NCBI RefSeq assembly: GCF_000714715.1
Contig: NZ_JMFO01000003.1
Span: 186,001 to 250,000 of the forward strand
Source: Candidatus Magnetobacterium casense
Lineage (GTDB): Bacteria > Nitrospirota > Thermodesulfovibrionia > Thermodesulfovibrionales > Magnetobacteriaceae
Direction: 5' to 3'
DNA length: 64,000 nucleotides
Below are positions 48,157-63,178 of the stretch, one piece after another. Made by a program: the position numbers and the translations under genes. How positions within the stretch are numbered: the stretch's first letter is position 1; every line of letters starts with the position of its first letter. The notes under the pieces were generated by a model. The model had not been told where the DNA came from. It saw only the letters and a list, made by a program, of their open reading frames with translations, and did no database searches.

Positions 48157-50665
48157 CTATTGAATCACCCAGTCACCGTTAAGTCCTTGTGTCATAAAGC
48201 CGCTTGACTTGATCGAGGCGCCATCCATAAACCAGACAAACATGGCACCGGTATCTTTGTATTGCCATAACATATCGGCCTTACCGTCGCCGTTGAAATC
48301 CCCCACGGCAGATATCTCCCAGTCCACAGACATCCCCTTGAGTACGAAGTCACCCGATGCTATCTTGCTGCCATCCATGAACCAGATAAAGATATCCCCG
48401 CTGTCGATGTTTTGCAGCAGGATATCGACCTTGCCGTCGCCGTCAAAGTCGGCCACTGCCCTGATCTTCCACTGCTCCGGGAGGCTATGAATGACGTACC
48501 CACCACCCGTGATTGAGGCACCATCCATCAGCCAGAGATAGATATCCCCCGTAGGTATGTATCTGAAGAGGAGATCGGCCTTGCCGTCACCGTTAAAGTC
48601 GCCCGCGCCTGCAACCATCCAAGTTGATCCCATGCTATTGACCACATACTTACCCGACGCAATATTGCCGCCATCCATAAACCAGATAACAAGCGCCCCA
48701 TTGCCCGAGTGTTGCAGCAAGATATCGGCCTTGCCATCGCCGTTAAAATCAGCTACCGAATTAATCTTCCACGCCGGATCGACATGCGTTGCCGCATAAT
48801 GGCCGGTGTGATTTAATCCGTTTATAAGCCAGATGGCAAAATCGGTTGTTGCGGAATTCTCAAAGACGATGTCGCTCTTGCCATCCCCGTCAAAGTCGTA
48901 TGTTACGGTGCCTGTGCCAATCTTATCCAACTGCACCGTGACAGCCTTGTCGGTGGTCATCTCAACCACGCAATCGTTGCTGCCGGTGATGAACTTGCAA
49001 TCCGTCCAGCTTTTTATCGTCGAACCGGCCGACGCAACTGCATTAATGGTGACCAACTTACCTGAGTCAAACGATACCGTGCCGGTCTTGCCATTCCATG
49101 AGAGGGTGCCTGGGGAGGAGGTCACCGTGCCATCGCCCGTTCCCTGTTTTGTCACCGTGAGGGTCATCTTGTCTGGAGCAGGGGTGGGCGTGGGGGTCGC
49201 TGTTGGCGTCAGAGCCAAAGTAAACGTTGCTATCACCCCTCTGGCCGCTGACATTGTCACCATGCAGGTTGAACTCGCCCTGGTGCAACTACCTCCCCAA
49301 CCGGTAAAGGTTGAACCTGCGTCAGATTTTGCCGTTAGAGTAACTGATGAATCTGAGATATAGTTAGCCGTGCAGGTGTTTCCACAATTGATCTTGCCGT
49401 CTGAACTCGTCACTGACCCGCTGCCTGTGCCAGACTTCGAAACCGATAGACCAAACAATACCTGTCCTGCCCGTACCGGCCAAACATATAAGTAACTATA
49501 TTTGGGGTAGACTGCCACATTACCCGATTTTGGTATATCAACAACCCATGCGCTATCATAGGCATCGCCACTTTCTGCCGTAGATGACCAATAATATTCA
49601 CCTACCGGAGCGACTAAAAAAGGATTATCTGAGGGAAGTGATGGCTTCTCCGTTGCCCGATCAATCAGGCTAATCAGCTCTTTTCTATTTGGCAGTCGCC
49701 AGTCGCTATAACCAAGATATTGGGCTGTATTAATGCACTTTATATAATCAAGTGCCCCTTGCCAGGTCTTGGTTCCACCCATGCAACGTTCTGCACCTCC
49801 AGCTATTGATGGCGTAGTAGCGTTTTTGCTCCAAACCAGACCTGTAAGATTGTCTGTAACCGTTTGATTGCCGTTATCATTAAACCTGGGGTTAGGCCAA
49901 GCCACACCCTTCTGTAGCGCACCATCATCACCGGCAGCGTAGGAGACAATTTGACCGGTGGCCCAGATAGCCGCATTATTATATGCCCCGGACTGTCCGG
50001 AACGTACCGGCCACACGCTATCAATACTGGAGGTCTTAGCTTCGAGCTTTATTGTTCCACTGAACATGATAACAACCCACGCGTAGTCCTTATTAACTGA
50101 ACATGATAACAACCCACGCGTAGTCCTTATTAATGGAATAAGATGTAGATGACCAATAGTTGTACATGTTTACACCTGTGAAGCCTTGTGTTTTTAACCA
50201 TGCCGATGAATCAGTTACTCCCAGGTTTGAGAGGCTTTCAAGTTCGTTAATGTTTGGCAGTCGCCAGTCGCTGTAGCCGGCGTATTTGGCAACGTTGAGG
50301 CAAGTTATGTAATCAAGTGCCTCTTGCCAGGTCTTGTATTTTTTAGCTGTACAAAGACCCAACCCCGCTGTGCCGGCATCTGTTGTCCAGACCAGTCCCG
50401 TAAGGTTGTCTGTAATCGTCATGTCACCATATGTGAATCGAGGATTGGGCCAGGCCACACCTGTCCGGATTGCTCCGTCATCGCCGTCGGCATCGCTCGT
50501 TGCCTGACCAGTTTGAGGCAGATTGACTGTACTGGCATAGACGGCGCCGTTAATACACATAGCTCCAATCACTACGAACAACGCCAGCATAAGCAACGTC
50601 CTTATACCTGGCGTATTGCAGTTTTGGATATCCCTTATCGTTGGGTTGTTGCTTTGTCCAAACAT
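48157..50665 (-). pseudogene. secreted DUF1566 / FG-GAP (VCBS) repeat protein, broken by 37-bp duplication
   Basis: Two frames (50665-50093 and 50112-48157) form one gene if one 37-bp unit at 50061-50134 is removed, giving 823 residues. ATG 50665 has GGAGG 8 bases upstream and a signal peptide follows (about 20-45). Two DUF1566 (Lcl-type) domains with WRLPN and YYWSS/NYWSS motifs come next, then beta-sandwich repeats with Thr/Pro linker, and five FG-GAP/VCBS units (DFNGDGKADI type, Ca-binding). It is likely an extracellular or surface adhesive protein. The duplication truncates it after the first DUF1566 part. Confidence 0.8.
50061..50134. repeat. 37-bp tandem direct duplication
   Basis: TGAACATGATAACAACCCAC and the following 17 bases (50061-50097) are repeated head-to-tail at 50098-50133, up to the mismatch at the end. 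As 37 is not a multiple of 3 the gene is shifted out of frame. Confidence 0.85.
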
Positions 50666-50905
50666 CAAAATATCCTCCAAAAACATTCTTGTTTCATGCA
50701 GCACCAGTGAAACTGGCATCTGCATAGTTAAAAATATTATAGCTCCGGATAAATGGAAAAATATATCGCCAGGACGACAAATCAAAGAATATTTTTGCTG
50801 TAAAAAAATCCCGTTTAGTTTCCGAAAATCCGGGTTAAACCTGGTAGCGGAAAAGATGGGTTGAAAGACAGACTTAAAGATCGAATCGCTGTTGTCTCTT
50901 GTCCG

Positions 50906-56602: not shown

Positions 56603-56715
56603 GCTGCAGAGACTTACTCCACGCCGCAGATGTTTCTTTAAAGTATAGTAGTACCGTTATGGAAGCCTTAAAAACAAAAACACTTAAAGCAAGTTTCACT
56701 AAGGAGGTAATTGTT

Positions 56716-58605
56716 ATGAAAAACATGGCCGTGCTGTTGAGCATGTTTGTGTTGTTGGTTTTGGGGACAGAGACCCATGCTGAAACCGTGAAATCGACTC
56801 CACCTTCACCCATAGATGCCAAATCTATTATCGAGACCCGTTGCACCACCTGCCACAACATAAACAGGATCGTGTACGCCCCCAAGGCCACTCTCAACGA
56901 CTGGCTCCACATAGTCTCCAAGATGGAGTCGCAGGGAAAAGGACTCCTCACGCCGCAGGAGATGATCGCCGTCGTAGACTGGCTCTACGCCAACCACGAA
57001 ACCCTCAGACCGGTTGACACTGGCAAGTCTGAACTAATAAAGAAGCTCCCGGAAGACACCCAACAACTGCTGGTGAAAAACCACTGCCTCACCTGCCACA
57101 CCGACGACAGGATCACTAAACAGGCAGCAAAATGGACGGAAAAGGAATGGGGACACGTCATCCAGCGAATGATGACTAAGGCCCCTGTGTTGCTTAAAGA
57201 TGTAAATGTTACGGAAATGTCCACGCATCTTTACAACAGACTTGCGGTAGTTCCAAAGACCGGAGCCAAAAAGATTACATCCGAGTTGTACTACAACGTT
57301 GACGGCTATGTAGACATGCGTGCCGAGAACAAATCCAAATACTACTTCAACAACAGAATAAACAAAGACCAGGGTCAGCGTGGCCTGGATGCCTTTGGCG
57401 AGGGTGATGCCCAGGTACATGGCGAAATTTTCAACCCTGACAAGTGGAAGGCCCGCCTGTCATTAGCCTTCTACGGCATGGCAGATTCAGGTAACAACTC
57501 CATGCGTGACGGCATGTACAGACGTATATCCAGAGATGTCAAGGGACTCATGACGATAGAGGAGCTTTGGGCTGAGGTCAACGCTACCGATTCGCTCGTA
57601 GTGCGTGCCGGTGTGCAGGAGTATACATCCGACCTTATCGGCTCAATATACAAGGATACTGACCTGGGCGTGCGTGTCTATGGAAAGCTCTCCAACGGTA
57701 TCGATTGGAGTGTGTACGCCGCGCAGAGGATCGAAAACGACCTGCTGTCGGGTTACAACAGTCCTTCCGATATGCGCGACCAGCAGATAGTCATCGCCCA
57801 CATGCAGTTCACCCTCGCCTCACAGACCGTCAAGCCCTCCCTGAGCTTTAACCACGATCGTGAGGGAGATCACAAGTTTGGCCGCGAGGGCAAGTACGAA
57901 AAGGTGGATGTCATTTATCCCGGTGTAACCACGTATGGAGACGTGGGGCCGTTTAAGCTCCTCACGGGTCTCTACGGCGTCTTCGGTATGCAGAGAGACG
58001 TCGTACTGTTGGGCAAGATACCGCTCAAGGATCAGAAGGTGTCGGCCTTTACGGGTTATTTAGACCTTGCCCTCCCTGTAGGGGTATTTACGCCGCACGT
58101 GGGATTCTTCTACGCCTCAGGCGATAACGATCCCTCCGACGACAAGGCGCACGGTTTTGACTCGATTTCGGACCGCGTGGACGTCTGGGGTGCCCACGGC
58201 ATAATCATCAACGACCGGATAAGTCTCCCCGGCGGCATAACCGTCATAAGGGCCCACAGTCCATACACCTCTCTGCGCGACATTGATGCAAGCTCAAACT
58301 TCGTAAACCCCGGCGTATCCGCCGCTAACCTGGGGCTTGTCATAACCCCCATAAAACCGCTCGCCATCGATACCAACCTTACCTACTTCTGGTGGAACAA
58401 GACGGCTGTACTTGAGGCCCTCGTTGGCCCGGTTGGCAAAAACGTTGGTCTTGAGTGGAACGCCGACGTTAACTATGACATAAGCAAGAGTTTCACGGTT
58501 TATCTGGCCGGTGCGGTGTTCTGGGCAGACAAGGACATGGCCAAGATATACGGTGACCATCGCATGGCAAGCGACGTATTGGCCGGTGTAAAGTACCGTT
58601 TCTGA
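56716..58605 (+). CDS. dihaem c-type cytochrome fused to an outer-membrane beta-barrel
   Basis: The product is 629 residues from ATG 56716 (AAGGAGGT 8 bases before; a 19-residue upstream extension is rejected). A signal peptide (1-22) leads to two haem-c motifs, CTTCH (43-47) and CLTCH (124-128), with Met70 and a Met pair near 150 as possible axial ligands. From about 185 to the end the sequence is amphipathic beta-strand and finishes VKYRF, the terminal aromatic of outer-membrane barrels. The layout is like the Cyc2 iron oxidase, but with two haems. It may carry electrons across the outer membrane. A porin gene follows. Confidence 0.82.
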   Translation: MKNMAVLLSMFVLLVLGTETHAETVKSTPPSPIDAKSIIETRCTTCHNINRIVYAPKATLNDWLHIVSKMESQGKGLLTPQEMIAVVDWLYANHETLRPVDTGKSELIKKLPEDTQQLLVKNHCLTCHTDDRITKQAAKWTEKEWGHVIQRMMTKAPVLLKDVNVTEMSTHLYNRLAVVPKTGAKKITSELYYNVDGYVDMRAENKSKYYFNNRINKDQGQRGLDAFGEGDAQVHGEIFNPDKWKARLSLAFYGMADSGNNSMRDGMYRRISRDVKGLMTIEELWAEVNATDSLVVRAGVQEYTSDLIGSIYKDTDLGVRVYGKLSNGIDWSVYAAQRIENDLLSGYNSPSDMRDQQIVIAHMQFTLASQTVKPSLSFNHDREGDHKFGREGKYEKVDVIYPGVTTYGDVGPFKLLTGLYGVFGMQRDVVLLGKIPLKDQKVSAFTGYLDLALPVGVFTPHVGFFYASGDNDPSDDKAHGFDSISDRVDVWGAHGIIINDRISLPGGITVIRAHSPYTSLRDIDASSNFVNPGVSAANLGLVITPIKPLAIDTNLTYFWWNKTAVLEALVGPVGKNVGLEWNADVNYDISKSFTVYLAGAVFWADKDMAKIYGDHRMASDVLAGVKYRF

Positions 58606-58995: not shown

Positions 58996-59198
58996 AAGGA
59001 GGTGATACAGCTAACAGCGACGTAAATGTGGTGTTAGCCCCAGGGTAACGACAACGGGTTGGGTTATGAGGGTCAGGTAGTAACAGACCCATAACAGAAC
59101 TATCGATAAGTGAAGAAAGACGATCACAAAGTTTGGTAAATTGTAAAAAAACGCTGCCTTTGGCAGAAAAGATTCTGAGAGATATATGGAGGATTAAG
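58996..59198 (+). promoter_or_regulatory. structured 5' leader of the porin with anti-16S element
   Basis: AAGGAGGTGATACAGC (58996-59011) pairs with 15 of 16 bases of the 16S 3' end. Three hairpins follow: GCTAACA/TGTTAGC, GTTAT..GGGTC/GACCCATAAC (59063-59095, 10 pairs with a 2-base bulge) and CTGCC/GGCAG (59154-59166). The real ribosome site GGAGG is at 59188-59192. The structure suggests post-transcriptional control, unproven. Confidence 0.4.
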
Positions 59199-60650
59199 TT
59201 GAAGAAGTTAACACTATTAATGATGCTGCTGATGATTGTTTTTGGCGTGGCATCGGTTATGGCCCAAGAGGCTTCAACTACAACAGCAGTTGTGGCAGGC
59301 GGAGAAACGAAAATAACGCTCGCAGGTGAGCTGAGGTTCAGGGGAGAGTTTTCAAGTAACCTGACAGATCAGCTTGATGACGAAGCCAAGAGGTTGGTAA
59401 CAACACCGGCCCCTCCGGGATTCAAAGAGGGTAGTGATGACCACAATGCCTACTATGATGGCCGTGTAAGACTCAGCGTAGACGCCAAGATAGGTACAGC
59501 AGTACAAGGCTTTTTAGAGCTTGAATCCGGCACAGACAAGACAGATACATGGATATGGGGTAATTCTGCAGCCAGCGATTCTGGCGCTAGAGGTATCTAT
59601 CCAAATGGTAATACGAAGAAGGGTGACATCCACATCCGTCAGGCATGGATTCTTTATACAAAGGGCATGTATGGCTTAAAGGTTGGTCATCAGTTATGGT
59701 TTCTTGGAAATAAGCTATTCTTTGACCACACAAGGTACGGTGATGACGGCATCAGGATTATCATCGACCCAACCAAATACATCCACATCGAAGTAAAGGC
59801 TCTGAAGTTCAGCGAGCAAGCCACCAACCGCCCGGATGATGGTGACGCCTATGTCGTAGAGGTAAAGTATAAGGGAGAAGGAGGCGTAAACGCCAGCGCT
59901 GATGTAGCATACGTAAACGACCAGGGCTTTGCAGCGTTAGTGCCTACTTATCAGTATGCCCATGTGTGGAACTTCGGTCTGCGTGGCGACTACACAAACG
60001 GCCCGGTAACAGTCAGAGGCGACATTGAAGCTCAGGCAGGAAAGCTCGAAAATCCTGATAACAGCAGAATCGAAGACGCCACCGTAAAAGGTTGGGCAGG
60101 TCTGTTAGGCGTAGACTACAAGATCGCCGGTAACATCCCCCTGAAGCTGACCCTGGAAGGTGCATACGGTAGCGGTAAGTCCGCAGATGACAAGAACAGT
60201 GACTTCAAGACCTTTATCACTTCGCTTGGAAACGACCAACACTATACCTATGTGTATGAGTATAAGTTAAAGTCAGCCGCAGGCGCTATCAGCACAGGTC
60301 TTGCCAATACCTTATACATCAAAGGCGCAGCAAAGGCCGAGTTTACAAAGTCCCTCGACGCCGAACTCGCACTGTACTGGCTCCAGGCAGCAAAGAAAGT
60401 GGCCCTCAACGCAGTATCAGGACCGGGTCTGCCAGTCATCAATCCTTCAAAAGACCTCGGTTGGGAAGTAGATACCAAGATCACATACAAGATAGCAAAG
60501 AATCTCCAGTACTTCGTAGAGGGTGGCTATATGTTTACAGGTAAGGCATACGACAATGTTGTCCAGACACGTGTAGTACCCGTAGCTGAGTTCGCAACCG
60601 AGCGCGACGACGCTTATGCCATCAGAAACGGAATCCAGTTCAACTTCTAA
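59199..60650 (+). CDS. outer-membrane porin-like beta-barrel protein
   Basis: The product is 483 residues from TTG 59199 (GGAGG 6 bases before; the frame to 59133 adds 22 residues that do not look like a signal). The signal peptide (about 1-23) ends in VMAQE. The mature part is beta-strand throughout, with RFRGEF early and a C-terminal GIQFNF aromatic end. It resembles alginate-export/short-chain porins. It probably allows small solutes through the outer membrane. It follows the cytochrome-barrel gene; both have anti-16S sequences in their leaders. A strong terminator follows. Confidence 0.85.
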   Translation: MKKLTLLMMLLMIVFGVASVMAQEASTTTAVVAGGETKITLAGELRFRGEFSSNLTDQLDDEAKRLVTTPAPPGFKEGSDDHNAYYDGRVRLSVDAKIGTAVQGFLELESGTDKTDTWIWGNSAASDSGARGIYPNGNTKKGDIHIRQAWILYTKGMYGLKVGHQLWFLGNKLFFDHTRYGDDGIRIIIDPTKYIHIEVKALKFSEQATNRPDDGDAYVVEVKYKGEGGVNASADVAYVNDQGFAALVPTYQYAHVWNFGLRGDYTNGPVTVRGDIEAQAGKLENPDNSRIEDATVKGWAGLLGVDYKIAGNIPLKLTLEGAYGSGKSADDKNSDFKTFITSLGNDQHYTYVYEYKLKSAAGAISTGLANTLYIKGAAKAEFTKSLDAELALYWLQAAKKVALNAVSGPGLPVINPSKDLGWEVDTKITYKIAKNLQYFVEGGYMFTGKAYDNVVQTRVVPVAEFATERDDAYAIRNGIQFNF

Positions 60651-60793: not shown

Positions 60794-61201
60794 ATGCCAA
60801 AGAAACATATAAGAAAAGAAGGCGAGGCCATCAGATATCTTGAAAATGCCAGGGAGATACTAAGAAACACCCAGATTGAAGGCAATCACTACATTGACAA
60901 GAAACCGGTAAGAGAGGCCTGTGGTACTGCCTACCTTGCCGTATTAGAGGCCATCAACGATGCATTGATAAAAAAGGGATTGGCCACAAAACAATTACCT
61001 AAAAAGGTGGAAACGTATAGAATTGCCTTACAAGAACACCTGTCAGTCAAAAATGGTAAGCTGCTGAAAGAATTCAATAGTCTGTATGATTTACTTCACA
61101 TAGCAGGCTACTATCAAGGCTTGCTCTATGATGCGCAGGTAGTCAAAGAGGCAATGAAGGCCACGGAGAGGTTTATAAAGAAGGTCTTAAACGGTGCCTG
61201 A
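60794..61201 (+). CDS. DUF5618-family protein, copy 1
   Basis: The product is 135 residues, all-helical, with YLENAREILRNTQIEGNHYI near the start and LHIAGYYQGLLYDAQVVKEA near the end, matching DUF5618 (HEPN-like helical proteins of unknown function). The Lys/Glu-rich sequence is about 85 percent like copies 2 and 3. AGGAGA precedes the ATG. It is followed by a fragment copied from the start of kdsA, so it is one end of a segmental duplication. Confidence 0.82.
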   Translation: MPKKHIRKEGEAIRYLENAREILRNTQIEGNHYIDKKPVREACGTAYLAVLEAINDALIKKGLATKQLPKKVETYRIALQEHLSVKNGKLLKEFNSLYDLLHIAGYYQGLLYDAQVVKEAMKATERFIKKVLNGA

Positions 61202-61346: not shown

Positions 61347-61766
61347 ATGCAAAAGAGGCAAGTTAAAACACAGATAATAAACGAAGGTGAGGCCCTCCGG
61401 TATCTCGAAAATGCCAGGGAGATACTGAGAAACACCCCGATTGAGGGCAGTAACTACGTGGACAAAAAGCCGATACGTGAGGCATTTGGAACTGCCTACC
61501 TTGCCGTATTAGAGGCTATAAACTACGCATTGATAAAAAAGGGATTAACCCCAAAGCAACTACCCAAAAAGGTGGAGACGTATAGAATCGCATTGCAAGA
61601 GCACCTGTCAGTCAAAAACGGTAAGTTATTGCGAGAGTTCAATAGTCTCTATGACGCATTGCATATAGCAGGCTACTATCAAGGCTTGCTATATGAGGCA
61701 CAGTTAGTTAAGGATGCAATGAAGGCTGCAGAGAGGTTTATAAAGAAGGTTTCAAACGGTGCCTGA
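61347..61766 (+). CDS. DUF5618-family protein, copy 2
   Basis: The product is 139 residues, with a slightly longer N-terminus than copy 1. The central AFGTAYLAVLEAINYALIKKGL helix and the QEHLSVKNGKLLREFNSLYD region are nearly identical to the other copies. It ends 21 bases before kdsA, so the two are probably cotranscribed. Function unknown; association with the Kdo pathway gene may be only positional. Confidence 0.82.
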   Translation: MQKRQVKTQIINEGEALRYLENAREILRNTPIEGSNYVDKKPIREAFGTAYLAVLEAINYALIKKGLTPKQLPKKVETYRIALQEHLSVKNGKLLREFNSLYDALHIAGYYQGLLYEAQLVKDAMKAAERFIKKVSNGA

Positions 61767-62770: not shown

Positions 62771-63178
62771 TTGAACAAGAGACATAACAGAAAAGAAGGC
62801 GAGGCCCTCAGGTATCTTGAAAATGCCAGAGAGACACTGCGAAATACTCAAATCGAAAACAATATATATCTGGACAAAAAACCGGTCAGAGAGGCGTGTG
62901 CAACCGCTTACCTTGCCGTATTAGAGGCCATCAATGACGCATTAATAAAAAAAGGTTTAACATCAAAACAACTGCCCAGAAAGGTGGAGACCTATAGGAT
63001 AGCCTTACAGGAACACCTGTCGATCAAAAACGGTAAGCTCCTGAGAGAGTTCAATAACCTGTATGATCTGCTCCACATAGCAGGCTACTACCAAGGTTTG
63101 CTCTATGATGTGCAGGTAGTCAAAGATACGTTAAAGGCTGCAGAGAGGTTTATAAAGAAGGTTTCAAACGGTGCCTGA
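62771..63178 (+). CDS. DUF5618-family protein, copy 3
   Basis: The product is 135 residues from TTG 62771, with GGAGG 5-6 bases upstream. It is the same length as copy 1 and slightly more diverged (ENNIYLDKKPVREACATAYL). It follows the repeat after kdsA and converges on pncC with a 14-base gap. The three copies share KKVSNGA-type ends. Confidence 0.8.
   Translation: MNKRHNRKEGEALRYLENARETLRNTQIENNIYLDKKPVREACATAYLAVLEAINDALIKKGLTSKQLPRKVETYRIALQEHLSIKNGKLLREFNNLYDLLHIAGYYQGLLYDVQVVKDTLKAAERFIKKVSNGA

Follow-up and report, generated by a model that had tools for sequence, protein, structure and literature searches.

The frame at 56716-58605 on the forward strand of the window (the whole 64,000-nucleotide stretch of Candidatus Magnetobacterium casense DNA analysed here) raised the question of whether a c-type cytochrome and an outer-membrane barrel are joined on one chain, and whether such a protein would carry electrons across the outer membrane. 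The gene was a single open frame of 629 aa. Its start was placed at the ATG at 56716 in preference to the in-frame upstream ATG at 56659 because a perfect Shine-Dalgarno sequence, AAGGAGGT (56701-56708, forward strand), was read directly 8 nt 5' of the former. The translation comprised, by inspection, a Sec signal peptide (about residues 1-22; 56716-56781) with a probable cut after THA, followed by a dihaem cytochrome c domain (residues 23-180; 56782-57255) and a C-terminal barrel (residues 186-629; 57271-58602), all on the forward strand. Haem sites 1 (CTTCH, residues 43-47; 56842-56856, forward) and 2 (CLTCH, residues 124-128; 57085-57099, forward) contained all 4 Cys of the protein, and two CxxCH motifs were obtained in 0 of 20,000 composition-preserving shuffles.

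The haem domain was matched by Pfam Dehyd-heme_bind (PF09098; residues 35-158, E 2.7e-7, 30.8 bits against a cut-off of 25.2) and, in two stretches, by NCBIfam SorB (E 3.4e-12), the latter below its cut-off (46.3 against 93). These matches are best explained by a tandem pair of SorB-like modules. The haem-module sequence resembles that of SorB and of the dihaem domain of the quinohaemoprotein amine dehydrogenase alpha subunit (PF09098), which are parts of soluble periplasmic enzymes with no barrel attached, whereas the haem modules of the fusion are joined to one. A PDB sequence search with the haem domain returned a marginal SorB match only, and AlphaFold2 modelled the domain alone with a pLDDT of 48. 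Both His65/147 and Met70/152 were conserved in all aligned relatives. The Met ligand of SorU is found 36 residues past its haem His (PMC4760952), a spacing matched in the fusion by Met83 only. An argument on redox potential from His or Met ligation was dropped, since either the conserved His or the conserved Met would fit as the ligand.

The C-terminal part was strand-rich, 444 residues long, and ended in VKYRF. A strand scan gave 20-24 candidate segments, and the family-averaged hydrophobicity gave 20 amphipathic segments against 13.6 ± 2.2 in shuffles, a modest excess that was not significant with the single sequence. Outer-membrane barrels usually terminate in Phe, and the C-terminal residue was F or Y in all eight aligned members of the barrel family. 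A profile of that family (A7), built with relatives from three other Nitrospirota genomes (G185, G370 and G334) and three sphingomonad plasmids, was compared by hhalign with nine Nitrospirota porins, all nine of which matched Pfam Alginate_exp (PF13372; best 1.1e-17). The two aligned with a probability of 98.5% (E 2.4e-15) over 337 columns that reached the C-terminus. In Pfam scans the fusion barrel alone matched no named family above cut-off and did not reach PF13372, and its kinship with the Alginate_exp / AlgE superfamily, which the profile comparison supports, is therefore distant. Matches to Phage_tail_U (E 0.15 and 0.09) were rejected as chance. PDB sequence searches found no solved structure matching the barrel. 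AlphaFold2, run on the full fusion protein with one homologue, gave a pLDDT of 29, and the barrel was called from homology instead. The preliminary description had reported a signal peptide, two CxxCH motifs and a strand-rich C-terminal part ending VKYRF, all of which were seen in this frame; its proposal that a cytochrome and an outer-membrane barrel are fused was supported by the homology to Alginate_exp-type porins.

A full-length fused orthologue, 56% identical (haem domain 53%, barrel 57%), was found in Ca. Magnetomicrobium cryptolimnococcus (L002); a second assembly that also contained it (G174) looks like the same genome. The orthologue had 709 aa, retained the two haem sites together with the entire barrel, and carried a third haem site, an extra CKLCH, near its N-terminus. 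The joining of a cytochrome domain and an outer-membrane barrel on one chain is very probably a real architecture. The fusion occurred in 2 genomes only, in searches of 176 genomes of the order and of a phylum-wide sample of 395, other phyla being covered by one scan for close relatives in genome contigs and plasmids.

The nearest relatives of the fusion barrel carried no haem (24-33% identity) and came from the other Nitrospirota named above and from sphingomonad plasmids. The two fusions formed the sister of these barrels of multihaem clusters (cluster group 89/96) in a tree of 17 rows. On the sphingomonad plasmids (Sphingobium/Sphingopyxis; L014-L016) a four-CxxCH cytochrome came first, then a haem-binding HbpS-like protein, the barrel and finally a ten-CxxCH cytochrome, and G185 (L017:127-8815) had the same order with a ten-CxxCH cytochrome in first place. 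In G370 (L038:5071-13909) and G334 (L039:5449-15198), a flavin/ferredoxin-like oxidoreductase, an inner-membrane protein, a ten-CxxCH FHA-type protein, an HbpS-like protein (its frame not resolved in G370), the barrel and a ten-CxxCH cytochrome followed one another. Pfam matches underlie the assignments of the oxidoreductase (G334), the FHA domain (G370) and the HbpS-like domain (G185). LVIVD repeats were present in both of the large cytochromes scanned, one from G185 and the other from a sphingomonad. Such clusters resemble porin-cytochrome conduits. They partly recall PCC4 (He et al. 2017, PMC5566968), a likeness of gene content only, and no description of a multihaem cytochrome/HbpS-like/barrel/LVIVD cytochrome cluster was found in the literature searched. 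They share their barrel family with the fusion but carry their haems on separate proteins.

An electron-transfer role for the fusion is plausible because the haem-free relatives of its barrel sit in these porin-cytochrome gene clusters. The preferred reading, given a probability of about 0.6, is that the protein is a single-chain outer-membrane cytochrome-porin in which a haem cap at the periplasmic mouth exchanges electrons through the pore; that electrons cross the outer membrane by way of the fusion at all was judged probable. Sec export and c-type haem attachment would yield the dihaem domain, and the barrel, of perhaps 16-20 strands, would insert in the outer membrane. The dihaem domain is most likely at the periplasmic mouth because the N-terminus of a barrel normally points into the periplasm, an argument also made for Cyc2 (PMC8406198), and the linker between domain and barrel has about 13 residues. 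By simple geometry, a 150-aa sphere is about 35 Å wide and the interior of an 18-strand barrel roughly 23 Å, so that a full plug inside the barrel is sterically doubtful and a cap more likely. A soluble redox substrate (e.g. Fe(II) in solution or a small electron shuttle) could then come in through the pore and exchange electrons with the closer haem, and the second haem would pass them inward to a periplasmic cytochrome and on to haem-copper oxidases or nitrogen-oxide reductases. The host genome encodes haem-copper oxidases and NrfHA, which are possible electron sinks for the fusion. Two haems would, by themselves, bridge little of the membrane. This was counted against the conduit reading, as were the low pLDDT values, the lack of a solved structure matching the barrel, the absence of a shared gene neighbourhood and the occurrence of the fusion in two genomes only.

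The alternative that survived best, itself unlikely, is that no electrons cross: the barrel would serve as a porin for uptake or export, and the dihaem domain fused to it would act in the periplasm as an electron carrier or redox sensor tethered at the outer membrane. The haem domain is closest to those of SorB and amine dehydrogenase, which serve periplasmic oxidoreductases, and the Alginate_exp superfamily includes ordinary porins, one of which (59133-60650, forward strand, by profile matches) adjoins the fusion. Against a plain porin, the closest relatives of the fusion barrel lie in multihaem cytochrome clusters, not in sugar or alginate loci. The adjoining porin had earlier been put forward in connection with the conduit. 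It is present, but as evidence for a conduit it did not hold: it is an ordinary porin, a gap of 527 bp separates it from the fusion gene, and no Alginate_exp-like porin was adjacent to the fused orthologue at the L002 locus. The neighbouring genes of the two fusions differed, no conserved neighbourhood at the two loci pointed to a partner or substrate, and the fusion gene seems, on this comparison, to stand alone.

An outward conduit, in which the fusion would hand electrons to Fe(III), humics or another acceptor outside the cell by way of an unlinked surface cytochrome, is improbable. It is favoured by the large multihaem cytochromes, maybe surface-exposed, that adjoin the haem-free barrel relatives. 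Against it, no gene for a surface cytochrome was found beside the fusion at its locus, and the LVIVD decahaem cytochrome had no match in the host genome. Neither a Cyc2-like protein nor, in Pfam scans, MtrB_PioB (PF11854) was matched there, and these three absences are provisional because the genome is 92% complete.

The cytochrome-porin fusion has been described as unique to Cyc2 (PMC8406198). Cyc2 / Cyt572 (PMC8406198, PMC10654088) and the present protein share a layout of signal peptide, N-terminal c-type haem domain and outer-membrane barrel on one chain. Cyc2, however, has one haem, an AXPXFAR motif and a 16-strand phosphoporin-like barrel, whereas the fusion has two SorB-like haem modules (three in the orthologue) and a barrel of the Alginate_exp superfamily. 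The Cyc2-defining motif, AXPXFAR[Q/K][T/Y] ahead of CXXCH (PMC8406198), was absent from the window fusion and from its orthologue but present in Cyc2-like proteins from the same family of genomes. The barrel-family profile did not match that of a Cyc2-like set of three proteins from this family and two from a second Nitrospirota family (hhalign probability 0.2%, E 0.32). That the fusion is a divergent but true member of the Cyc2 family is thus extremely unlikely, since a shared domain order (c-type haem domain first, barrel after) and the occurrence of Cyc2-like genes in 8 of the 19 genomes of the window's family are set against two haems in place of one, the missing motif, unmatched barrel profiles and a barrel that matches another porin superfamily; unless intermediates turn up, the motif and profile results refute Cyc2 identity. 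The expectation of a single-chain porin-cytochrome unlike Cyc2 was supported, the motif being absent and the barrels unrelated at profile level. Judged from sequence, the protein is most likely a convergent analogue of Cyc2.

MtrAB, MtoAB, PioAB and other porin-cytochrome complexes likewise combine a barrel and c-type haems in a proposed electron path across the outer membrane, but do so on separate chains, with a 26-strand barrel of PF11854 that encloses about ten haems, whereas the fusion has two haems on the same chain and no match to PF11854. MtrB_PioB barrels occurred in 9 of the 19 genomes of the window's family, and the two fusion genomes had neither these nor Cyc2-like genes. This complementary distribution was not used as evidence (chance about 0.21).

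SorB-like haem modules were also found in other settings. A trihaem relative of the dihaem domain was encoded by a separate gene directly 3' of a true Cyc2-like gene in two genomes (G016, L018:609-2721; G025, L019:9078-11157), an arrangement that suggests this cytochrome is a Cyc2 partner and that was counted in favour of the preferred reading. In two further genomes (G154, L045; G257, L046) such modules, with three and two CxxCH, respectively, formed another fusion, in which they lay behind a predicted multi-helix membrane domain.

That the fusion represents a further class of single-chain cytochrome-porins, evolved independently of the first, was given about even odds. Such a class would unite two or three SorB-like modules with a barrel from a hitherto undescribed porin-cytochrome system of several genes, and so condense a multi-gene complex into one protein for electron transport across the outer membrane. 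Convergence on the Cyc2 design from a different barrel superfamily and a different haem family would, if true, mean that this design had more than one origin, and would provide a small two-haem system in which to test the minimum number of haems for electron passage across the outer membrane. The fusion would escape the Cyc2 and MtrB markers by which iron or mineral metabolism is called from genomes. Its barrel family, which has no name, is also a marker of porin-cytochrome clusters in sphingomonads and Nitrospirota.

Elsewhere in the window, three close DUF5618 (HEPN-like) copies (60794-61201, 61347-61766 and 62771-63178) were arranged around a KDO-8-phosphate synthase-like gene. On the reverse strand, two adjoining frames with similar repeats at 48157-50785 had an overlap of about 20 bases; they may together represent a single gene with a frameshift.
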